From Neolewinella persica DSM 23188 (lineage in GTDB: Bacteria; Bacteroidota; Bacteroidia; Chitinophagales; Saprospiraceae): DNA of 64,000 nt. A program made the position numbers and the translations under genes. This document shows positions 52-53,223 of this stretch, piece after piece. Where the stretch lies: NCBI RefSeq assembly GCF_000373105.1, contig NZ_KB890414.1, positions 113,620 through 177,619 on the forward strand, given 5' to 3'. The notes under the pieces were generated by a model. It worked only from the letters and a program-made list of their open reading frames with translations. It was not told where the DNA came from and did no database searches. Numbering within the stretch: position 1 is the first letter of the stretch; each line of letters opens with the position of its first letter.

Positions 52-3000
52 TTATTTCAAATTAATCTTCTCCTCCAACCCCTTAAACACCCTCCAATTA
101 TCCGGATACTTAACCATCAGCCGCATATACTCCACCGAGGGGCGGGCCATCAGCCGGCCTAAAGGCGGCGCTACGGCGAAGCAACCTTCGCCCTCCACGC
201 ACCCGAGGGTAGCCTCGACTTTCCGGTTAATGGCCTCAACTTTCCTGCTAAGCGCCCGGTCATTGAGTTCCCCGCCCAGCGCAAGGTGAACGTTCGTTTC
301 ATCGAGGCGGAAGGGCAGATCAATAACGTGATACTCCTCCACGAGACCAAGCTTCTTCGGTACGTCGCTGCGGAGGTAATCATCCCAGGAGTTCGGGACA
401 CCGCTAACGCCGGAGTTGATGGCGGCGTTAGAGTTCGCGCTTAATTCAGAACGGTAGAAATTCCGGTTCAGCGCGTCCTTCTGCGTCAGGAACTGGTCCC
501 GGACGAAGCGGGCGATGTCGTTCCGGACGCCGATCATGATGACCGGGTGGTCGTTGAAGAAGCGTTGGTAAACGGTGTCTCCAGGTTGGCCGGGAGAGAT
601 GGCATTTGCCTTCATATAATTCAGCACATGCATGATGGTGCTGATGCCCGAATTATCGGCATTACCAGCATCGACGAAATGGCCCCGCCCTTCGATCCGG
701 CCGGCGGGGCTCATGATCGGGAACCGGTTGGCCAGGAAAGCCGCGTCGGGGAAGGAGATGGCTTCATTTCCCCGGGCGGTCAGGTCCACCATCCCCGGCA
801 TAAGGTCGGTGTTGGACAAGGGGTGGATGACACCCCGCATCCCGTCTTCGGCCCGGGTGGTATTACTGATGAATAACGGCAACTGGTAGTTGACCTTCTG
901 CCACAGGTGGGCGTAGGGTTGCTCCCGGATTTCGTCGTAAGAATAAGGCCCGGTTTTACCCCCGACAATGTTAAAATAAGCGCGGGCCATTGCCTCGGCC
1001 CGGTCTTCCAGATCCCTGGCTCCCCACCCTGGCAAGTTGGGGACGAAATTGACGGGGAAACGGGCAACCAGGCCGGTAAAATCACCACTCAGAAAGTTGG
1101 TGGCACCAATTTTTTCTATGGCCGCGCGAATCTCTGGAAGGGGCTTTTGCTGTCCCTTCAGGTAGGTGTACATCGACAGGCCCATGTTGCCGCCGCTGGC
1201 TCCGCTGAGCAGGTAGACGTTGTCGTCGAACAAGCCCATGGAATCGAGTTGGTACAGCTGGAGCATGGTCCAGTAACAGGCTTTTAGGCCGCCGCCGTCG
1301 GCGGCAAGGAGGAGGATGGGTTCCCGGTCACCGGGCTTTGCCTCCAGCCTGTCCAGGAAATCAGCGGTGTAATCGACGAGGCTTACTTTGCCATCCTCTT
1401 TCATTTCTGCCCGGTAAGAGACTTCGTGGTAGCTGTTGCCGTAGTAGGCAAGTGCCAGCACGAGGGCAACCACAGCCACGCCACGGAAAAAATTCATCAC
1501 GCTGATGGTGTCGTACTTCTTCCCCTTATTCCCCGGTTCGCTGTAAAAGGCGTGCTGTATGCTGAGGTCTCGTAGCAGCATAAACCGACCTATGATTAGT
1601 AGCATGGCGATGAACCCGTTGATCAGCAACAAGTAGATATTCAGCGGGTTCAGGTTTTGCAAAAAGGAGCTTGACAGGAACTTCCCCGAGAACATTCCGT
1701 AGATGAAGAAAAATACAAACCCTCCCGCTACCAGCCAGAGAAAGATCAGCATTGCTTGTGTGCTGGAATACCCCAGAAAATCCAGTCCGCGATCCCAGCG
1801 ACTGACCTGTGCGTGCTGCATAACGCGCGTTGCATTTTCGTCCGATACAGATTTACGCAGCTTGGCGTCAAAAGTAAAGCGTTCATAGAACCCACCGTAC
1901 ATCACCAGCCAGACAAACGAGAAGATACTGACCAACAGGAAGCTAAGGAAGTACCCGAAGGTGACTTGCCATGCTGCGCCGGCAATACTTTTCCACAAGG
2001 TCAATAAAAAGAAAAGCAAGCTGAACCCAACCGATACCAGGCCAAGCCAGAAGGTCCACTGCCGATCCACGAAGTAGATTTTGGTGTCTTTGGGCTTATC
2101 CCCTTCCCGGTCCCGGAGGTTGTACCACCATTGCCAGGGCTTGAAGCTAAAAGTCTTGTTTTCGCTCACCACCCGGTCGGCCAGGTTATCGGGACGCCTT
2201 GCCCCGGAGAAAGATTTCTGGATGTACACCCAATAAGTGAGTACCAGCCCCAGGGTGATTAACGGAACGATGGTACTGAAAGACGCCAGTGCAGAGTTGT
2301 TGCCCAGGTAAATCCCCGTACAAATGGAGATTAAACTGAACAAATAAACGACCCCCAGTAGCCGACCCGTGCTAAAAAAGGTAAGAGTGGGCGGAGGGAT
2401 TTTCGCATTTTGGAGCGGCAGGTAATACTTTGGTGGAGGTATTGGCTCAACGTTGGCCGGTTTCACCCCGTACAGGCGCTCGTGAAGGAACAGCCAACCG
2501 AAGATTCCCAGTCGACTGATGGCAGAGGTTTTACCCGCCAGGTGCGTCTCCGCCACATTCCAGCTGTCGGCCCGGTGAGCAAATTTCTGATCGGTAAAGA
2601 AGGAGTACACCGGTCCGAACCAAATGATGACCAGGGAAACCGGGAAAAGGAATAAGGTAAAAAGCAACAGATTGCCGGGACTCTGGACTAACTCGATGAA
2701 GAAAGCATCGAATTGGGCCAGCTTCGAAAAAACGAAGGTAATGATGCCTACGGAGATGATCGTGGGATAGAAGTAGGGGAGGAAATCGGATGTGAACTTG
2801 CCCACCCGTACGGCAAAATCGTGGTAAATAAACTGCAACAGCGTACTTACACTTAGAAACAGGCACAACAGCCTGCTGATGATGGCCAGCAAGTAAATGG
2901 AGGTAAAAAAGCCACTGGAAAGATCCATGTCCGGATTTCGCAGCAAGCGAAAAAAGTAGGTAAACAAGATCGTATTGCTCACCAGCATGGTGGCAAAAAG

Positions 3001-3600
3001 CACGAAGGTTCCGTACCAGAAAAGCCGGCGCCAGATGTTTTTTTGCAAGTTTATTGGAGTGGGCAGCAAGCGCACCGGCTGCAACCTGAAAATCCGGGTA
3101 AAACGATGTTCCTCCTTATCCCTGGATTCTTCTTCCTCAAGTTCTTCCTCTCTGGATTTTTTAATTTCAGGCTTTCCTCCCTTCAGTTTTTCTCCCTTAG
3201 TTTTTTCAACCACGGGTTTCCCATCTCTAAGTTTTGCCTCCTTGATTTCGGACAAGACGGCACTGTAGAACAACTGGTACAACAGGTAAGTAAGCGCAAG
3301 AATGAACAAGGCACTCAGTACGAAGAACATATAGCCCGTCTCCAACAAATCGGGGATTACCCAACGGGACTTGAGGTCGAGCAAGTCGATCAACGAACCG
3401 ACAAAAGGCGTTGGAACCGTAGGCCTGCTCTTAAAAAAAAGGTAAGCAATGGCCACGACGAAAAAGCCCAGAAAGGCCAGCTGTAAGAAACCATGATAAT
3501 GAAACCGCCAACGGACGGTGGCGTCCTGATGAAAGAGAATGTCCGTCTCTTTTGCGACTTCCCCAATTTCTTTTTCTTCTTCTTGCTCTCTTAACATCAT
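52..3600 (-). CDS. Multi-pass membrane protein with C-terminal patatin-like phospholipase domain
   Basis: The protein has 1182 residues. About the first 720 carry many hydrophobic stretches separated by charged loops, including a Lys/Glu-rich loop near residues 125-165. A patatin-like lipase domain follows from about residue 762. It shows an oxyanion-type DGGGLK, the nucleophile elbow SGASGG (Ser near 802) and a DAG at about 977 that would supply the Asp of the Ser-Asp dyad. Patatins are acyl hydrolases of membrane lipids; fusion to a long membrane region is less usual. I infer a membrane-bound lipid hydrolase with unknown substrate. Start: two adjacent Met codons; the first is used here. A TATCTTTA box, one mismatch from TAnnTTTG, lies just upstream. 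No operon partner is visible. Confidence 0.8.
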   Translation of the reverse strand: MMLREQEEEKEIGEVAKETDILFHQDATVRWRFHYHGFLQLAFLGFFVVAIAYLFFKSRPTVPTPFVGSLIDLLDLKSRWVIPDLLETGYMFFVLSALFILALTYLLYQLFYSAVLSEIKEAKLRDGKPVVEKTKGEKLKGGKPEIKKSREEELEEEESRDKEEHRFTRIFRLQPVRLLPTPINLQKNIWRRLFWYGTFVLFATMLVSNTILFTYFFRLLRNPDMDLSSGFFTSIYLLAIISRLLCLFLSVSTLLQFIYHDFAVRVGKFTSDFLPYFYPTIISVGIITFVFSKLAQFDAFFIELVQSPGNLLLFTLFLFPVSLVIIWFGPVYSFFTDQKFAHRADSWNVAETHLAGKTSAISRLGIFGWLFLHERLYGVKPANVEPIPPPKYYLPLQNAKIPPPTLTFFSTGRLLGVVYLFSLISICTGIYLGNNSALASFSTIVPLITLGLVLTYWVYIQKSFSGARRPDNLADRVVSENKTFSFKPWQWWYNLRDREGDKPKDTKIYFVDRQWTFWLGLVSVGFSLLFFLLTLWKSIAGAAWQVTFGYFLSFLLVSIFSFVWLVMYGGFYERFTFDAKLRKSVSDENATRVMQHAQVSRWDRGLDFLGYSSTQAMLIFLWLVAGGFVFFFIYGMFSGKFLSSSFLQNLNPLNIYLLLINGFIAMLLIIGRFMLLRDLSIQHAFYSEPGNKGKKYDTISVMNFFRGVAVVALVLALAYYGNSYHEVSYRAEMKEDGKVSLVDYTADFLDRLEAKPGDREPILLLAADGGGLKACYWTMLQLYQLDSMGLFDDNVYLLSGASGGNMGLSMYTYLKGQQKPLPEIRAAIEKIGATNFLSGDFTGLVARFPVNFVPNLPGWGARDLEDRAEAMARAYFNIVGGKTGPYSYDEIREQPYAHLWQKVNYQLPLFISNTTRAEDGMRGVIHPLSNTDLMPGMVDLTARGNEAISFPDAAFLANRFPIMSPAGRIEGRGHFVDAGNADNSGISTIMHVLNYMKANAISPGQPGDTVYQRFFNDHPVIMIGVRNDIARFVRDQFLTQKDALNRNFYRSELSANSNAAINSGVSGVPNSWDDYLRSDVPKKLGLVEEYHVIDLPFRLDETNVHLALGGELNDRALSRKVEAINRKVEATLGCVEGEGCFAVAPPLGRLMARPSVEYMRLMVKYPDNWRVFKGLEEKINLK

Positions 3601-4165
3601 ATGGGTGGTGTGGTGGGTCGCTAAAGATAGTGAGTTATCGAGTTAGTGAGTTGGTGACTCATCAACTCACTTTGCACCCGCGTCCGCGCCCGAAAAAATG
3701 TACCACAGGTAAGGTTCTCTCCTTCTTCTTAGTGAAGCCTTTCCTGCTCTGCTGGCGCAACGAGGATTTTGGGGTACGCTGGCGGCGGGCACGACTGTTA
3801 CTTTCGCTGTTTGTCATCACAATGATCTCCCCCGTTTTCTTTTTACGGCGTTCCTGAAACAAGCTTTTGCTAAGCACTTCTCCGGGTAGAAGGGCTGCAA
3901 TGGTCAGCCGGGCTTACTATGAAGTAAACCTTCCGAGGCTAGGGGCCAGGGTCGTTGTCTCTCACGGCGTCCCGTCCTTCGGCTACACTGTTCTGGATGG
4001 CGTATTGATCGACGAAGAGCGTAAGAAGCTGGAAGAAGCTATCACTACATTTACCCAGGCAGTTACGGCGCCTTAGAAGTAGGGTGGTTACTCAGCATTT
4101 ATGCTGAAATGCACCCTATCAAAATTGATGCCGCATGAATAGCGATTCCACCATTGGCTAATAAA
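3601..4165. other. Intergenic region with two doubtful small ORFs
   Basis: About 560 bp lie between two minus-strand genes. A plus-strand ORF at 3867-4076 (69 residues, ending in a Lys/Glu-rich helix-like stretch) and a minus-strand basic ORF at 3662-3877 (71 residues, rich in Arg, Lys and Ser) could each be coding. Neither resembles a family I know, and the minus ORF ends by reading through the dispersed GC-rich motif. Short inverted repeats built from GAGTTGGTGA-type phrases sit at 3640-3665. I cannot support a gene here with confidence. Confidence 0.3.
3671..3692 (-). repeat. Dispersed GC-rich motif, solo copy (intergenic)
   Basis: Variant with CCCGCGTCCGCGCCC in place of CCTGCGGCCGCGCCT. 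It sits directly after a short GAGTTGGTGA/TCATCAACTC inverted repeat. Confidence 0.75.
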
Positions 4166-44446: not shown

Positions 44447-44516
44447 TTCAGGTTTCAAGTTTCAAGTTTCAGGTTTCAGGTTTCAGGTTTCAAGTTTCAG
44501 GTTTCAAGTTTCAAGT
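44447..44516. repeat. Heptamer tandem repeat TTTCAAG/TTTCAGG
   Basis: About nine imperfect copies of a 7-bp unit start right after the protease stop. Further simple phrases (CCTGATCCCTGA types) continue to about 44640 and run into the C-terminal codons of the convergent heptosyltransferase gene. Confidence 0.85.
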
Positions 44517-48653: not shown

Positions 48654-49166
48654 ATGACCAATCAGCAGTTCGTGTCCGAAATGGACAACCTAGAAAACAT
48701 CCTCTTCTCCTTTGCCCTTCGCTTGACCCGTAACTATGAGGACGCAAAGGACCTGATGCAGGAAACGACTTTCCGTGCTTACAAGCACCGGGAGAAGTTT
48801 ACTACCGGTACGAACTTCAAAAGCTGGACGTCGACCATTATGCGGAATACTTACATCAATCGTTACCGTAAAATGAAGAACCGCCGCCACGTCAACGAGC
48901 CGGTGGAAAACTTCCTCTTCGCAGTAGAGAATAAGGCGGCTACCGCCAACGGAGGCGAAGCTAAGATTCACCTGGACGAACTGCAGGCAAAACTGCGCCA
49001 GATCAACGAAATCTACAGTGTTCCTTTCCTGATGTTTTACCGTGGCTACGAGTACAAGGAAATCTCCGGCCACCTGAACATCCCCATCGGAACGGTTAAA
49101 AGCCGCATCTTCCTGGCTCGCAAGAAACTAAAGGCGCTGATTGGAGAACGCCCGGTTGCCGTATAA
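48654..49166 (+). CDS. ECF-type RNA polymerase sigma factor
   Basis: This 170-residue sigma-70 family factor contains region 2 (YEDAKDLMQETTFRAYKHRE, with NFKSWTSTIMRNTYIN following) and region 4 (FYRGYEYKEISGHLNIPIGT then VKSRIFLARKKL). The linker between is short, as in ECF factors. No anti-sigma gene is adjacent, unlike many ECF loci, so control is probably elsewhere or transcriptional. The 366 bp upstream contain no other gene. A terminator follows 43 bp after the stop. Confidence 0.92.
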   Translation: MTNQQFVSEMDNLENILFSFALRLTRNYEDAKDLMQETTFRAYKHREKFTTGTNFKSWTSTIMRNTYINRYRKMKNRRHVNEPVENFLFAVENKAATANGGEAKIHLDELQAKLRQINEIYSVPFLMFYRGYEYKEISGHLNIPIGTVKSRIFLARKKLKALIGERPVAV

Positions 49167-49831: not shown

Positions 49832-51379
49832 ATGACGTTACTCATAGAACTTGATTCATGTTGTTTGCCTAAATGGGTAAACAAGATCTTACGGGAAGAG
49901 CAAGGTGGAAAACAGGAGAAAAGCCTCATTAGAAAGCTCTATAACCTGGTTCATGCCCGTAAGTATACGGAGAGTGAGATCGTAAAAAAACTTTACGGAC
50001 AAAAACTTACGCCAAGTCATGGACCTTTCCGCACCTTAAAAACTCGGCTGCGTCACGTATTGGTTGAAGCTTACATTATGCAAGGATTGAGTTCTCCATC
50101 CTATAAGTCCTACGATCTGGCTTATCAACATGGCTATCGACAATTGGATGTTGTCCGTCTTTTATTGGGAGGGAAAGCATTTAGTGCGGCGAAAGAGATT
50201 GCCCTCCAAGCTTTTAAAAATGTACGAGATTACGAAATAATTCCTTTGAACCAAGGCCTGACCGATGTCATTTCCTCCTTGCACCTCGGCCTTTTCTACA
50301 ACGAAGAGTTATACTTAAAGTACAGTGAACTTAATCGCTTCTACAGTAAGGCAAGTTATGACCTAAGCATCGTAACTAACTATTACCGGGAAGTCAGGAA
50401 TAGTATGTATGCCCAACGAGACTCTCCTATGGAGACGGGGCAAAAGGCCAGGCGGTACGTAGCGGAGTGTGCCGAGATCAGTAAAAAGTATCCAAAAATA
50501 TCTCTAATTCAAGGTATGCTCGTGGGTACCGAAATTACGGGGTGTATGTTGCGGGGAGAATACCGTGAAGCCATTGAGGTCTCTTTGCGCGGAAGTAAGA
50601 CGCTTATGGCGTGCAAGGGGGTCAGTCAAACCGTACTTAGCGTTTTGGCGCTAAACCGTGTGGAGTGTACCATAATGCTTAATGATTTTGAACTTGGCCA
50701 ACAGCAAATAAAGTACGCCAAAAAACAAGTAGAGGAGAATCCGATTAATGACCTTGCCCTATCAGACTATGCCGTTCGGCTTGGCTTAAGAACCGACAAT
50801 TATGAATTTGCGTATCGCCAATTTACCGCCGTTAGTCAGCATAAAATAAGCAGGTTTCTTACCTCCCGTCCTCAGGAACATTGGGTTATTCTGGAAGCTT
50901 GTATTAACTTTTTAGTTACCGCTGGTGAAATCGTGCCTAAAGACAACTGGCCCAAGCTAAGAAATTTTCGTGCTTCAAGCTTCATGAACAAAGTTTTCAC
51001 TTCTACTCAAAATAAAAAGGGAGAAAATATTCAGATATTGGTTCTTCAAGCACTTTTCTCCATTATTAGAAAAAAGTATGATGACGCAATAGATAAGACG
51101 GCAAGCCTTGAAGCCTATTGCAACCGTTATTTAAAAGATGATGAAAACTTGAGGAATAATTGCTTCTTCAAACTTTTACTGATTACGATAAAAGCAAATT
51201 TTAATCGCAGAATTGCAGAAAGAAAAGGAGAAGCGGTATTTCGAAAGCTACAAGCCACAACTGATCGTTCGAAGCTCAACAATACAGAGTTAATTCCTTA
51301 CGAAAAACTTTGGCTGATTTTACTCAATCACTTAACGATGACTAGAGCTGACGAAGCTGCCTTGAGAAGGAATTTATAA
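49832..51379 (+). CDS. Large all-helical (TPR-like) protein of unknown function, convergent with the peptide array
   Basis: This 515-residue cytoplasmic protein has no signal peptide or membrane helix. Residues about 30-85 (RKLYNLVHARKYTESEIVKK ... TLKTRLRHVLVEAYI) resemble a small helical, possibly winged or HTH-like, domain. The rest is a run of amphipathic helices with TPR-like spacing (KAFSAAKEIALQAFKNVRDY, EYREAIEVSLRGSKTLM, KKYDDAIDKTASLEAY). I recognise no family with certainty. The gene is AT-richer than the housekeeping genes. Its stop lies 9 bp from the last peptide gene of the array, tail to tail, which makes a functional link worth testing. An HTH-plus-TPR layout would suit a peptide-responsive regulator, but this is inference. 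Confidence 0.7.
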   Translation: MTLLIELDSCCLPKWVNKILREEQGGKQEKSLIRKLYNLVHARKYTESEIVKKLYGQKLTPSHGPFRTLKTRLRHVLVEAYIMQGLSSPSYKSYDLAYQHGYRQLDVVRLLLGGKAFSAAKEIALQAFKNVRDYEIIPLNQGLTDVISSLHLGLFYNEELYLKYSELNRFYSKASYDLSIVTNYYREVRNSMYAQRDSPMETGQKARRYVAECAEISKKYPKISLIQGMLVGTEITGCMLRGEYREAIEVSLRGSKTLMACKGVSQTVLSVLALNRVECTIMLNDFELGQQQIKYAKKQVEENPINDLALSDYAVRLGLRTDNYEFAYRQFTAVSQHKISRFLTSRPQEHWVILEACINFLVTAGEIVPKDNWPKLRNFRASSFMNKVFTSTQNKKGENIQILVLQALFSIIRKKYDDAIDKTASLEAYCNRYLKDDENLRNNCFFKLLLITIKANFNRRIAERKGEAVFRKLQATTDRSKLNNTELIPYEKLWLILLNHLTMTRADEAALRRNL

Positions 51380-51388
51380 AAGCCGTTT

Positions 51389-51511
51389 TTACAGCATTAG
51401 GTCGTTAATGACGGTAGCATTGAGCGTTCCTAGCCAATCGGTAATCGTGCCGTAGGCAGAGAGGATGGCATCAACTTGGTCGACAGTAAGGCTATTAATG
51501 ATGGTAGGCAT
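51389..51511 (-). CDS. Tandem acidic peptide gene, copy 1
   Basis: A 40-residue peptide with ends MPTIINSLTVDQ and NATVINDLML. It has no Lys or Arg, four Asp and one Trp. This copy differs from the others at residue 2 (Pro for Ser) and residue 4 (Ile for Leu); other base changes are synonymous. It is the last copy, 9 bp from the stop of the convergent helical-protein gene. Confidence 0.75.
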   Translation of the reverse strand: MPTIINSLTVDQVDAILSAYGTITDWLGTLNATVINDLML

Positions 51512-51614
51512 TGTTGTAGGTTAATAGTGATAAAGGGGTTGAAGCAGGACAGTTTGTCGCCCTTAAAGAGGGCTGGTTGGGTTGCCTCGAAAGGAAGTTA
51601 TCCAAGGCAGTTTA

Positions 51615-51737
51615 TTACAGCATCAGGTCGTTAATGACGGTAGCATTGAGCGTTCCTAGCCAATCGGTAATCGTGCCGTAGGCAGAGAGGATGGCATCAA
51701 CTTGATCGACAGTAAGGCTATTAATGAGGGTAGACAT
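51615..51737 (-). CDS. Tandem acidic peptide gene, copy 2
   Basis: A 40-residue peptide, MSTLINSLTVDQVDAILSAY then GTITDWLGTLNATVINDLML. Identical in protein sequence to copies 3-6, with synonymous base changes (Asp codon GAT, Leu codon CTA). Confidence 0.78.
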   Translation of the reverse strand: MSTLINSLTVDQVDAILSAYGTITDWLGTLNATVINDLML

Positions 51738-51840
51738 TGTTGTAGGTTAATAGTGATAAAGAGGTTGAAGCAGGACAGTTTGTCGCCCTTAAAGAGGGCT
51801 GGTTGGGTTGCCTCGAAAAGAAGTTATCCAAGGCAGTTTA

Positions 51841-51963
51841 TTACAGCATCAGGTCGTTAATGACGGTAGCATTGAGCGTTCCGAGCCAATCGGTAATCGT
51901 GCCGTAGGCAGAGAGGATGGCATCAACTTGATCGACAGTAAGGCTATTAATGAGGGTAGACAT
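51841..51963 (-). CDS. Tandem acidic peptide gene, copy 3
   Basis: Same 40-residue product as copy 2. The Leu codon in TDWLG is CTC rather than CTA. Confidence 0.78.
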   Translation of the reverse strand: MSTLINSLTVDQVDAILSAYGTITDWLGTLNATVINDLML

Positions 51964-52066
51964 TGTTGTAGGTTGAGTAGTGAGAAAGGAGTTGTAGTAG
52001 GACAGTTATCACCCTTAAAGAGGGCTGGTTGGGTTACCTCTAAAGGAAGTTATCCAAGGCAGTTTA

Positions 52067-52189
52067 TTACAGCATCAAGTCGTTAATGACGGTAGCATTG
52101 AGCGTTCCGAGCCAATCGGTAATCGTGCCGTAGGCAGAGAGGATGGCGTCAACTTGGTCGACAGTAAGGCTATTAATGAGGGTAGACAT
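52067..52189 (-). CDS. Tandem acidic peptide gene, copy 4
   Basis: Same 40-residue product. Silent differences include TTG for the Leu in NDLML and GAC for the Asp before AIL. Confidence 0.78.
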   Translation of the reverse strand: MSTLINSLTVDQVDAILSAYGTITDWLGTLNATVINDLML

Positions 52190-52291
52190 TGTTGTAGATT
52201 GAGTAGTGAGAAAGGAGTTGAAGTAGGACAGTTTTTACCCTACAGAGGGCTGGTTGGGTTGCCTCGAAAGGAAGTTATCCAAGGCAGTTTA

Positions 52292-52414
52292 TTACAGCAT
52301 CAGGTCGTTAATGACGGTAGCATTGAGCGTTCCGAGCCAATCGGTAATCGTGCCGTAGGCAGAGAGGATGGCATCAACTTGATCGACAGTAAGGCTATTG
52401 ATGAGGGTAGACAT
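52292..52414 (-). CDS. Tandem acidic peptide gene, copy 5
   Basis: Same 40-residue product. The Ile codon before NSLT is ATC instead of ATT. The spacer on its 3' (left) side is one base shorter than the 226-bp period. Confidence 0.78.
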   Translation of the reverse strand: MSTLINSLTVDQVDAILSAYGTITDWLGTLNATVINDLML

Positions 52415-52517
52415 TGTTGTAGGTTGAGTAGTGAGAAAGGAGTTGAAGTAGGACAGTTTTTACCCTTAAAGAGGGCTGGTTAGGTTGCCTCGAAAGGAAG
52501 TTATCCAAGGCAGTTTA

Positions 52518-52640
52518 TTACAGCATCAGGTCGTTAATGACGGTAGCATTGAGCGTTCCGAGCCAATCGGTAATCGTGCCGTAGGCAGAGAGGATGGCGT
52601 CGACTTGGTCGACAGTAAGGCTATTAATGAGGGTAGACAT
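52518..52640 (-). CDS. Tandem acidic peptide gene, copy 6
   Basis: Same 40-residue product, with GTC-GAC for Val-Asp before AIL. It is the first 40-residue copy in the direction of transcription. Its upstream flank diverges into the 91-bp repeats. Confidence 0.78.
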   Translation of the reverse strand: MSTLINSLTVDQVDAILSAYGTITDWLGTLNATVINDLML

Positions 52641-52698
52641 TGTTGTAGATTGAGTAGTGAGAAAGGAGTTGAATTTGTCAGTGGTGAAAGTTGCTCTT

Positions 52699-52806
52699 TT
52701 AGAGCATGATATCGTCGATCATAATGGAGGAGGTTATGGGTAAAAAAATCTGTTTTCCTGATGCATAATACTTAGCATCACCTGAGTAGTTAAAGCATAA
52801 TATCAT
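52699..52806 (-). CDS. Possible 35-residue peptide gene ending MIDDIML
   Basis: An ATG inside the preceding repeat opens a frame MILCFNYSGDAKYYASGKQI then FLPITSSIMIDDIML. The ending matches the array peptides. The start is weakly supported; the functional product could be a shorter peptide starting at the Met of MIDDIML, or nothing. Confidence 0.35.
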   Translation of the reverse strand: MILCFNYSGDAKYYASGKQIFLPITSSIMIDDIML

Positions 52807-52904
52807 CAATCATGATGGGTGTGGTTATGGGTAAAAGAATCTGTTTTTCTAAGGTATAATGCTTAGTATAATCTGGGTAATTAAAGCATGATATCGTCGA
52901 TCAT
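52699..52904. repeat. 91-bp degenerate tandem repeats carrying the MIDDIML end
   Basis: The codons for MIDDIML plus stop recur at 52699-52722, 52790-52813 and 52881-52904, exactly 91 bp apart. They are conserved at the protein level with silent third-base changes. The sequence between (K-Q-I-x-L-P-I-T in one frame) is also conserved. Confidence 0.8.
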
Positions 52905-53015
52905 AGTATGCTTGATTTTGTGGTGAGAAAAAGATGAATCACACGCTGTTGAAGACTCAGAGAAACATGGAGAATCGATTGTTAAATCAAGTATGCAAGT
53001 CAGCGAATTATTCAT
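52881..53015 (-). CDS. Divergent 44-residue relative of the tandem peptides
   Basis: ATG at 53015 opens MNNSLTCILDLTIDSPCFSE, continues with a Ser/His-rich middle and ends HTMIDDIML. It shares NSLT near the start and I-D-D-I-M-L at the end with the array peptides, while the middle differs and has three Cys. It lies 20 bp or so after a predicted transcription start, which would also drive the rest of the array. Small size keeps confidence moderate. Confidence 0.5.
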   Translation of the reverse strand: MNNSLTCILDLTIDSPCFSESSTACDSSFSHHKIKHTMIDDIML

Positions 53016-53074: not shown

Positions 53075-53140
53075 TCAATTTACGCCTGTCGGTTAGCATA
53101 AAAAAAAAGCTTATTTCAATAATCCATAGCCCTAAAACAA

Positions 53141-53176
53141 AGAAAGCCAGCAACTTGCGTTGCTGGCTTTCTTTCC
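53141..53176 (-). terminator. Rho-independent terminator after the phoH-like gene
   Basis: AAAGCCAGCAAC pairs with GTTGCTGGCTTT across a 4-nt loop. On the minus strand TTGTTTTAGGG follows. It isolates the peptide array from phoH transcription. Confidence 0.9.
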
Positions 53177-53223
53177 TCCTGTGAGCGAAAAAACGTTTAA
53201 AAACAATTATTAAAAAGGCATAT

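Follow-up and report, generated by a model that had tools for sequence, protein, structure and literature searches.

A candidate peptide-ligand and receptor locus with tandem 40-codon ORFs and seven-codon ORFs in Neolewinella persica and its relatives

In the window analysed here (the whole 64,000-nucleotide stretch from Neolewinella persica DSM 23188), a tandem array of short peptide genes adjoins a gene for a 515-residue protein. We lean towards the interpretation that this locus pairs the gene for a receptor with genes for its peptide ligand, as part of a Bacteroidota family that operates in the manner of RRNPP or Rgg-SHP systems. The observed basis comprises selection on the peptides, a partner gene that is constant within the genus, a similar core behind unlike leaders, and a predicted TPR-like fold of the partner. 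Judged by its genomic context, the array is one half of a two-part locus, of which the 515-residue protein is the other half. The features of the locus are as follows.

49832..51379, plus strand: TPR-like helical protein of 515 residues and proposed receptor of the peptides (orthologues, AlphaFold2, Foldseek)
51389..51511, minus strand: 40-aa peptide gene copy 1, closest to the 515-residue gene; residues 2 and 4 deviate
51615..51737, minus strand: 40-aa peptide gene copy 2
51738..51840, minus strand: spacer between copies 2 and 3, the sole spacer folded (RNA fold, z -3.5)
51841..51963, minus strand: 40-aa peptide gene copy 3
52067..52189, minus strand: 40-aa peptide gene copy 4
52292..52414, minus strand: 40-aa peptide gene copy 5
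52518..52640, minus strand: 40-aa peptide gene copy 6, the first of the array in its own direction
52699..52722, minus strand: seven-codon micro-ORF MIDDIML (91-bp repeat)
52790..52813, minus strand: seven-codon micro-ORF MIDDIML (91-bp repeat), deviating from the other two at third codon positions alone
52881..52904, minus strand: seven-codon micro-ORF MIDDIML (91-bp repeat)
53139..53174, minus strand: strong hairpin, a possible terminator, separating phoH from the array (RNA fold)

The array (51389-52640, minus strand) consists of six ORFs, each with 40 codons and a stop, at spacings of 226, 226, 226, 225 and 226 bp, for which TRF reported a 226-bp unit, 5.8 copies and 95% matches. The 515-residue ORF is convergent with it, tail to tail across a 9 bp gap. 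These coordinates and spacings agree with an earlier note on this DNA, which had described six 226-bp units each carrying a 40-residue peptide on the minus strand. Its description of the variation and composition was likewise borne out: eight codons vary among the six copies, six of them silently (5, 11, 13, 14, 27 and 38), and the replacements at codons 2 and 4 are confined to the copy at 51389; the 40-mer has four Asp, one Trp and no Lys, Arg or His, and ends in INDLML. Its leader lacks a double glycine, and no signal peptide is apparent by eye.

Codon statistics support the view, already put forward in that note, that the peptide is a translated and selected product. Six arrays supplied 30 intact copies (window, 6; G002, 4; G005, 5; G014, 3; G015, 5; G019, 7); relative to their consensus, 73 synonymous and 39 nonsynonymous changes were counted (73/112, against an expected synonymous share of 23.7%; binomial p 1.6e-20, the copies being non-independent), giving a pooled pN/pS of 0.17. 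This set excludes genomes with a single copy, part of the G019 copies, and any copy interrupted by a stop or an N run. By genome, pN/pS was 0.06 in the window, 0.10 in G002, 0.06 in G015 and 0.11 in G019, and higher in G005 (0.40, 36 changes) and G014 (0.59, 3 changes only). A profile detected 37 single-core copies in the genus, one of them beside a paralogue; two carry a stop codon and another is shortened by an N run. The earlier note had named arrays in relatives with frameshifts and with nonsynonymous changes at neutral rates as evidence that would count against selection; the two stop codons and the G005 and G014 ratios go slightly in that direction, and the pooled ratio goes against it. 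Between species, pN was 0.31 in the last eight codons versus 0.40 in the leader, so that conservation of the core exceeds that of the leader only slightly.

A full orthologue of the 515-residue protein was found in 17 of the 21 genus genomes, and homologous peptides adjoin the receptor gene in all 17. As for the other genomes, G018 has a fragment at a contig end and G010 distant paralogues only, while no receptor match was found in G003 (88% complete) or G009 (55%). The peptides occur as separate genes in eight genomes (G000, G002, G005, G007, G013, G014, G015 and G019), with up to nine copies next to one receptor (G019) and no ATG visible for the separate peptide of G013. In the other nine (G001, G004, G006, G008, G011, G012, G016, G017 and G020) they take a polyprotein form, in which one to three long ORFs carry a similar leader followed by core repeats (IVVEDIIMRGAEVASNN...), about 6-10 per polyprotein and of the type IVVEDIIMRG/IVVEDIVTRG; the G020 array is apparently split across two contigs. 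For one polyprotein, PHROGs returned four weak matches, all annotated as function unknown, and an NCBIfam match to MmoB (5e-5, 23 bits, cut-off 245) was taken as chance. The element common to all forms is a C-terminal core of 7-9 residues, which forms the end of the single peptides, the repeat of the polyproteins and the entirety of the micro-ORFs.

The micro-ORF trio (52699-52904) sits upstream of the six-copy array and points in the same direction. A 44-aa ORF at 52881-53015 had earlier been read as a divergent upstream member of the array; the real repeat unit is the seven-codon ORF MIDDIML, present three times, and the NSLT motif shared with the 44-aa ORF looks like a coincidence. Across the genus, 32 micro-ORFs were found in 16 of the 17 loci examined, G013 having none. 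Their mean conservation at codon positions 1, 2 and 3 was 0.81, 0.97 and 0.61, and it drops outside the ATG and the stop, except for A at -13 and -12 and a pyrimidine directly before the ATG. A reading of the upstream members as peptides of 36-44 aa was rejected, since bases are conserved from ATG to stop and little outside. The DNA pattern ATGRYHRAHGAYNTHNTNHTNTRR gave 31 matches in the 21 genomes (reversed-pattern control, 2), 29 of which lie at the loci; of the remaining two, one belongs to the second part of the G020 array and the other falls elsewhere in G004. At 28 micro-ORF starts the frequency of A at -13, -12 and -3 was 0.93, 0.79 and 0.64, compared with 0.22, 0.31 and 0.36 at 243 other ATGs in the same stretches. 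Baez et al. 2019 (PMC6847099) describe A at -13, -12, -6 and -3 as positive initiation determinants in Flavobacterium (F. johnsoniae); the start context of the micro-ORFs resembles this favoured one, and their translation is therefore likely.

Within genomes, micro-ORF and array cores form close pairs (MVDDLML/IVVDDLML, MVEDVVL/IVVEDVVL, MVEDIIM/IVVEDIIM and MIDDIML/TVINDLML) or looser ones (MTEDILI/IVVEDVAI and MIEDILI/VVIEDIPM). When a loose C-terminal DNA pattern was run on whole genomes, matches stayed at background level. Among 16 such places viewed, one turned out to be the second part of the G020 array, and another was a peptide belonging to a receptor paralogue of G002; no receptor was seen at the remaining ones, some of which showed a bare short ORF (MIEDIIL, MVEDLLL, MMKSVNDLMI). 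The receptor-less seven-codon ORFs MIEDIIL (L236:3001-3024, G004) and MVEDLLL (L240:2998-3021, G012) are probably chance.

The 515-residue protein is predicted to form an all-helical TPR-like superhelix. AlphaFold2, using 83 sequences, gave an all-helix model with a pLDDT of 89.8 and a pTM of 0.85, and Foldseek matches in the PDB were mostly TPR and similar solenoids, including TTC7B, LGN, Tom70 and MalT domain III, with a phage Rap at rank 35 and none reaching E<=0.001. The N-terminal 94 residues were modelled as five helices (pLDDT 79); 11 of 27 Foldseek matches to this part came from entries titled HTH-type proteins or complexes, all at E>=2.7, which is a hint only of an HTH-like character. 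Family profiles on the 83 aligned relatives yielded Wzy_C_2 in 8 (best 0.0025) and TPR_8 in 1 (0.0049), and on 22 members four TPR models scored 0.05-0.1, each in 1 of 22; a Las1 match in one of the 22 receptors (7e-5) was taken as chance. The protein itself falls in no family of Pfam, NCBIfam or PADLOC, its single PHROGs match (0.033) is of function unknown, and a PDB sequence search yielded nothing convincing. No significant sequence relation to known RRNPP receptors was found in Pfam, NCBIfam or PDB sequences; the family is therefore filed as working like RRNPP, not as belonging to it. Two of the six residues invariant in the 83 sequences are Arg (R432 and R441), which would suit an acidic ligand.

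Based on these features, we infer the following mechanism. The 40-mer would consist of a leader of about 31-33 residues and a C-terminal core of 7-9 residues (..TVINDLML). In its general form, the core begins with an aliphatic run, which a variable residue separates from Asp; an aliphatic residue follows, and after one or two free positions the core closes with a further aliphatic residue. Proteolysis would free the core, which would either leave and re-enter the cell by export and import or act where it is made. It would then bind on the inside of the TPR-like superhelix encoded by the convergent gene, and the N-terminal five-helix region of the receptor would relay the signal, perhaps to DNA. 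Tandem copies, core repeats in polyproteins and seven-codon ORFs may be alternative means of raising the ligand dose. Among the roles suggested in the earlier note, signalling and a processed precursor stand as candidates; the partner gene next door was absent from that note.

A more specific version of this mechanism is put forward tentatively: in a Bacteroidota class of signalling unrelated by sequence to RRNPP, much the same heptapeptide would exist in two forms, an exportable precursor with a leader and a leaderless seven-codon gene that feeds the receptor in its own cell. The latter would provide a baseline or self-signal inside the cell. If so, the micro-genes would rank with the shortest genes that function through their own product.

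The receptor family extends beyond these orthologues. In a collection scan, the best 80 of 128 confirmed receptor loci were used (64 Saprospirales, 6 Chitinophagales, 9 titled only Bacteroidetes/Bacteroidota and 1 Kordia sp. bin); together with the genus loci, and after removal of near-copies, they provided 125 receptors. ORFs of <=62 codons within <=1.2 kb of a receptor were searched for C-terminal core patterns, which were composed after the peptides had been read. The strict pattern adjoins 47 of the 125 receptors, paralogues and orthologues together (1-5 in ten shuffles), and the relaxed one 52 (3-8 in eight shuffles); a few relaxed matches, such as MVLIDKMK and MMIVDCRL, resemble chance. 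Either pattern adjoins 61, and 69 when eight receptors labelled by eye are included; the shuffle controls apply to each pattern by itself. A core ORF was present in 48 of 224 flanking 1.2-kb units versus 3 of 296 further off (one being the tail of the G019 array), and in the window outside the locus in 1 of 24 units of 2.4 kb. Peptides were convergent at 20 receptors, divergent at 26 and on the same strand at 23, with none recognised at 56. On a FastTree tree, all four orientation labels required 29 changes, against a mean of 61 after shuffling; among the labelled rows, the three peptide labels required 7.

Short ORFs beside many of the Saprospirales paralogues have core-like endings such as VIIIDITGV, IVIEDVVM and VIVVDIIAPL. 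Divergent peptides often have hydrophobic N-termini by eye (MTAVIYSLLITFGLITSPADFDNASAQEQQEMMIVIEDVVM), and same-strand ones often end in VIIIDITGV or similar. A few carry a double-glycine leader directly before the core or the core-bearing tail (L158, ...KEVKGG|VIVVDIIAPL; L104, L105 and L100); some loci were entered twice in the peptide survey, which includes the GG leaders and the G020 polyprotein. One GG-leader peptide, searched against 199 family genomes, was found in its own genome only. A second, independent tandem array of four peptides ending in ..DVIIGDYIIK or ..EVIIGDYIIK lies upstream of a divergent receptor paralogue (2290-3807) at L086 (G010:C73). Further small ORFs with GG-type leaders were seen near receptor paralogues at L242:4394-4714 and, about 1100 nt upstream, at L188 (..LQDAQLDAATGG.., ..DDKALESVKGG..).

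In a phylum scan a receptor was found in 21 of 296 genomes. Twenty receptors were checked for peptides, one of the 21 ORFs being omitted as shorter than 380 residues; a candidate peptide adjoins 5 of the 20 (two probably by chance), and beyond the window's family 3 of 16 (one probably by chance). With so few candidates outside the family, the peptide link is well supported only within the window's order and is weak outside it.

A protein of about 150 residues with the motif LG[SM]P...C..xGICR was also observed near receptors (L105:6297-6749, L080:5065-5520, L242:3159-3617 and 27 more matches, those of L079 and L242 being one gene). It flanks 32 of 138 distinct receptors, always divergent-upstream or same-strand downstream, gave no match in the window, and showed no Pfam family (5 scanned) or NCBIfam family (4 scanned). 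It is possible that this protein is a target or a third component.

Around the window's locus, the neighbours scanned were an ECF sigma factor (48654-49166), a response regulator, a thioredoxin-like protein, PhoH, a SAM hydroxide adenosyltransferase and a 202-residue ORF with no family above cut-off; besides the receptor, these six include no modifying enzyme. The 53100-53190 region, which contains the hairpin, folds at -34.9 kcal/mol (z -5.8), and the folded spacer shows two stem-loops, a short third one and an unpaired stretch before the next ATG. Within <=260 nt upstream, two TAnnTTTG-type promoter patterns gave no match in 17 stretches, and sigma-70-like promoters were no commoner than in shuffles. 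No Rfam family reached its gathering score in the window, and no PADLOC model fits the locus. The window also contains a 7-bp tandem repeat (TTCAAGT, ten copies) at 44447-44516. In polyprotein-type genomes, the receptor's upstream neighbours resemble type IX secretion genes, where the window has the ECF sigma factor; the L112:7008-11501 region carries a PorP/SprF and a C25-peptidase protein (by Pfam in L112, by likeness in L116, L117, L118 and L119).

Other explanations of the locus were weighed against peptide signalling. The peptides might stay inside the cell, the receptor reading what is made or released there, for example by a protease, and not an intercellular signal. Leaderless seven-codon ORFs at 16 of the 17 loci, too short for an export leader, and a 40-mer leader in which no export signal is seen by eye would fit this, but some paralogue peptides carry double-glycine leaders or hydrophobic N-termini, and the window's genome encodes three C39-peptidase matches and one OppA-type binding protein, so that export and import are possible in principle; we regard a purely intracellular role as unlikely. 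It is less probable still that the peptides are modified-peptide or bacteriocin precursors for which the 515-residue protein provides immunity or processing. The leader-core layout with repeated cores does resemble multi-core RiPP precursors, and double-glycine leaders occur in some paralogues; however, the scanned neighbours lack a modifying enzyme, and the cores have, by eye, no conserved Cys, Ser, Thr or Lys.

A toxin-antitoxin pair, in which small amphipathic peptides are the toxins and the helical protein the antitoxin, seems very improbable. Tandem small hydrophobic peptide toxins are known (Ldr, Ibs) and offer a precedent, but the part common to all forms here is a short acidic core and not a membrane helix, the micro-ORFs have only seven codons, and the Rfam and PADLOC searches, as given above, were negative. 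That the array is a passive DNA repeat which chances to be open is scarcely credible. Both the 226-bp and the 91-bp units are tandem repeats, and two of the 37 copies are broken; nevertheless, the synonymous excess and the codon-position conservation of the micro-ORFs led us to reject this explanation, and homologous peptides in the same place in 17 genomes also argue against it.

Peptide signalling through a ligand and a TPR-like receptor, the reading we prefer, has described counterparts. Searches of Pfam, NCBIfam, PADLOC and PHROGs with the 40-mer, its partner or both yielded no described family, and no such system was found among the open-access papers searched on Saprospiraceae, Lewinella and Bacteroidota at large, in agreement with the earlier note, whose author knew of no such family. 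Peptide signalling through cytoplasmic TPR receptors is known from Firmicutes and from the mobile elements they carry (PMC10075063). If real, the present family would represent a parallel one in a Gram-negative order, many of whose genomes contain several paralogues. To our knowledge, no earlier candidate cell-cell language has been put forward for Saprospirales; this would be the first, and its predicted cores are readily synthesised. The conserved seven-codon ORFs bear on the minimum length of a working gene.

Double-glycine-leader peptides are exported by C39-peptidase transporters. The paralogue peptides of L158, L104, L105 and L100, with GG before the core or the core-bearing tail, resemble them, whereas the window's own leader differs, having no GG. 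As in RRNPP/RRNPPA systems (Rap, NprR, PlcR, AimR), a propeptide gene adjoins a candidate TPR-like receptor, and the C-terminal part predicted to be active is encoded beside the receptor at 17 of 17 orthologous loci. The partner has 515 residues, compared with about 250-500 for RRNPP receptors. Those receptors start with an HTH or a three-helix bundle, where the partner has its predicted five-helix region with the weak HTH-type matches given above. RRNPP propeptides have a Sec signal or take the PptAB route; by eye, hydrophobic N-termini are present in many of the divergent peptides here and GG leaders in a few, and the window's peptides show neither. RRNPP propeptides with up to six cores have been described, multi-core propeptides being known in AimR, NprR, Rap and PlcR systems, as have 71 Rap proteins accompanied by two propeptide genes each (PMC9765709); the RRNPP survey covered Firmicutes and viruses (PMC10075063). 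Different from these, a single receptor here can have as many as nine separate copies next to it (G019), and polyproteins carry about 6-10 cores each.

The nearest working analogue would be Rgg-SHP of streptococci, in which an adjacent small gene, in divergent or convergent order, encodes a C-terminal core of about 8-9 residues (DILIIVGG, EGIIVIVVG) (PMC3679016), and in which Rgg adopts a TPR-like fold without a recognisable TPR sequence (PMC9765709). The family described here shares with it the small gene beside the receptor, the occurrence of both divergent and convergent orders, and a core that combines an acidic residue with an aliphatic run. It differs in its receptor of about 500 residues, which has no detectable sequence relation to Rgg, in the acidic residue lying within the core and not at its start, and in its Bacteroidota host, polyprotein cores and seven-codon ORFs.
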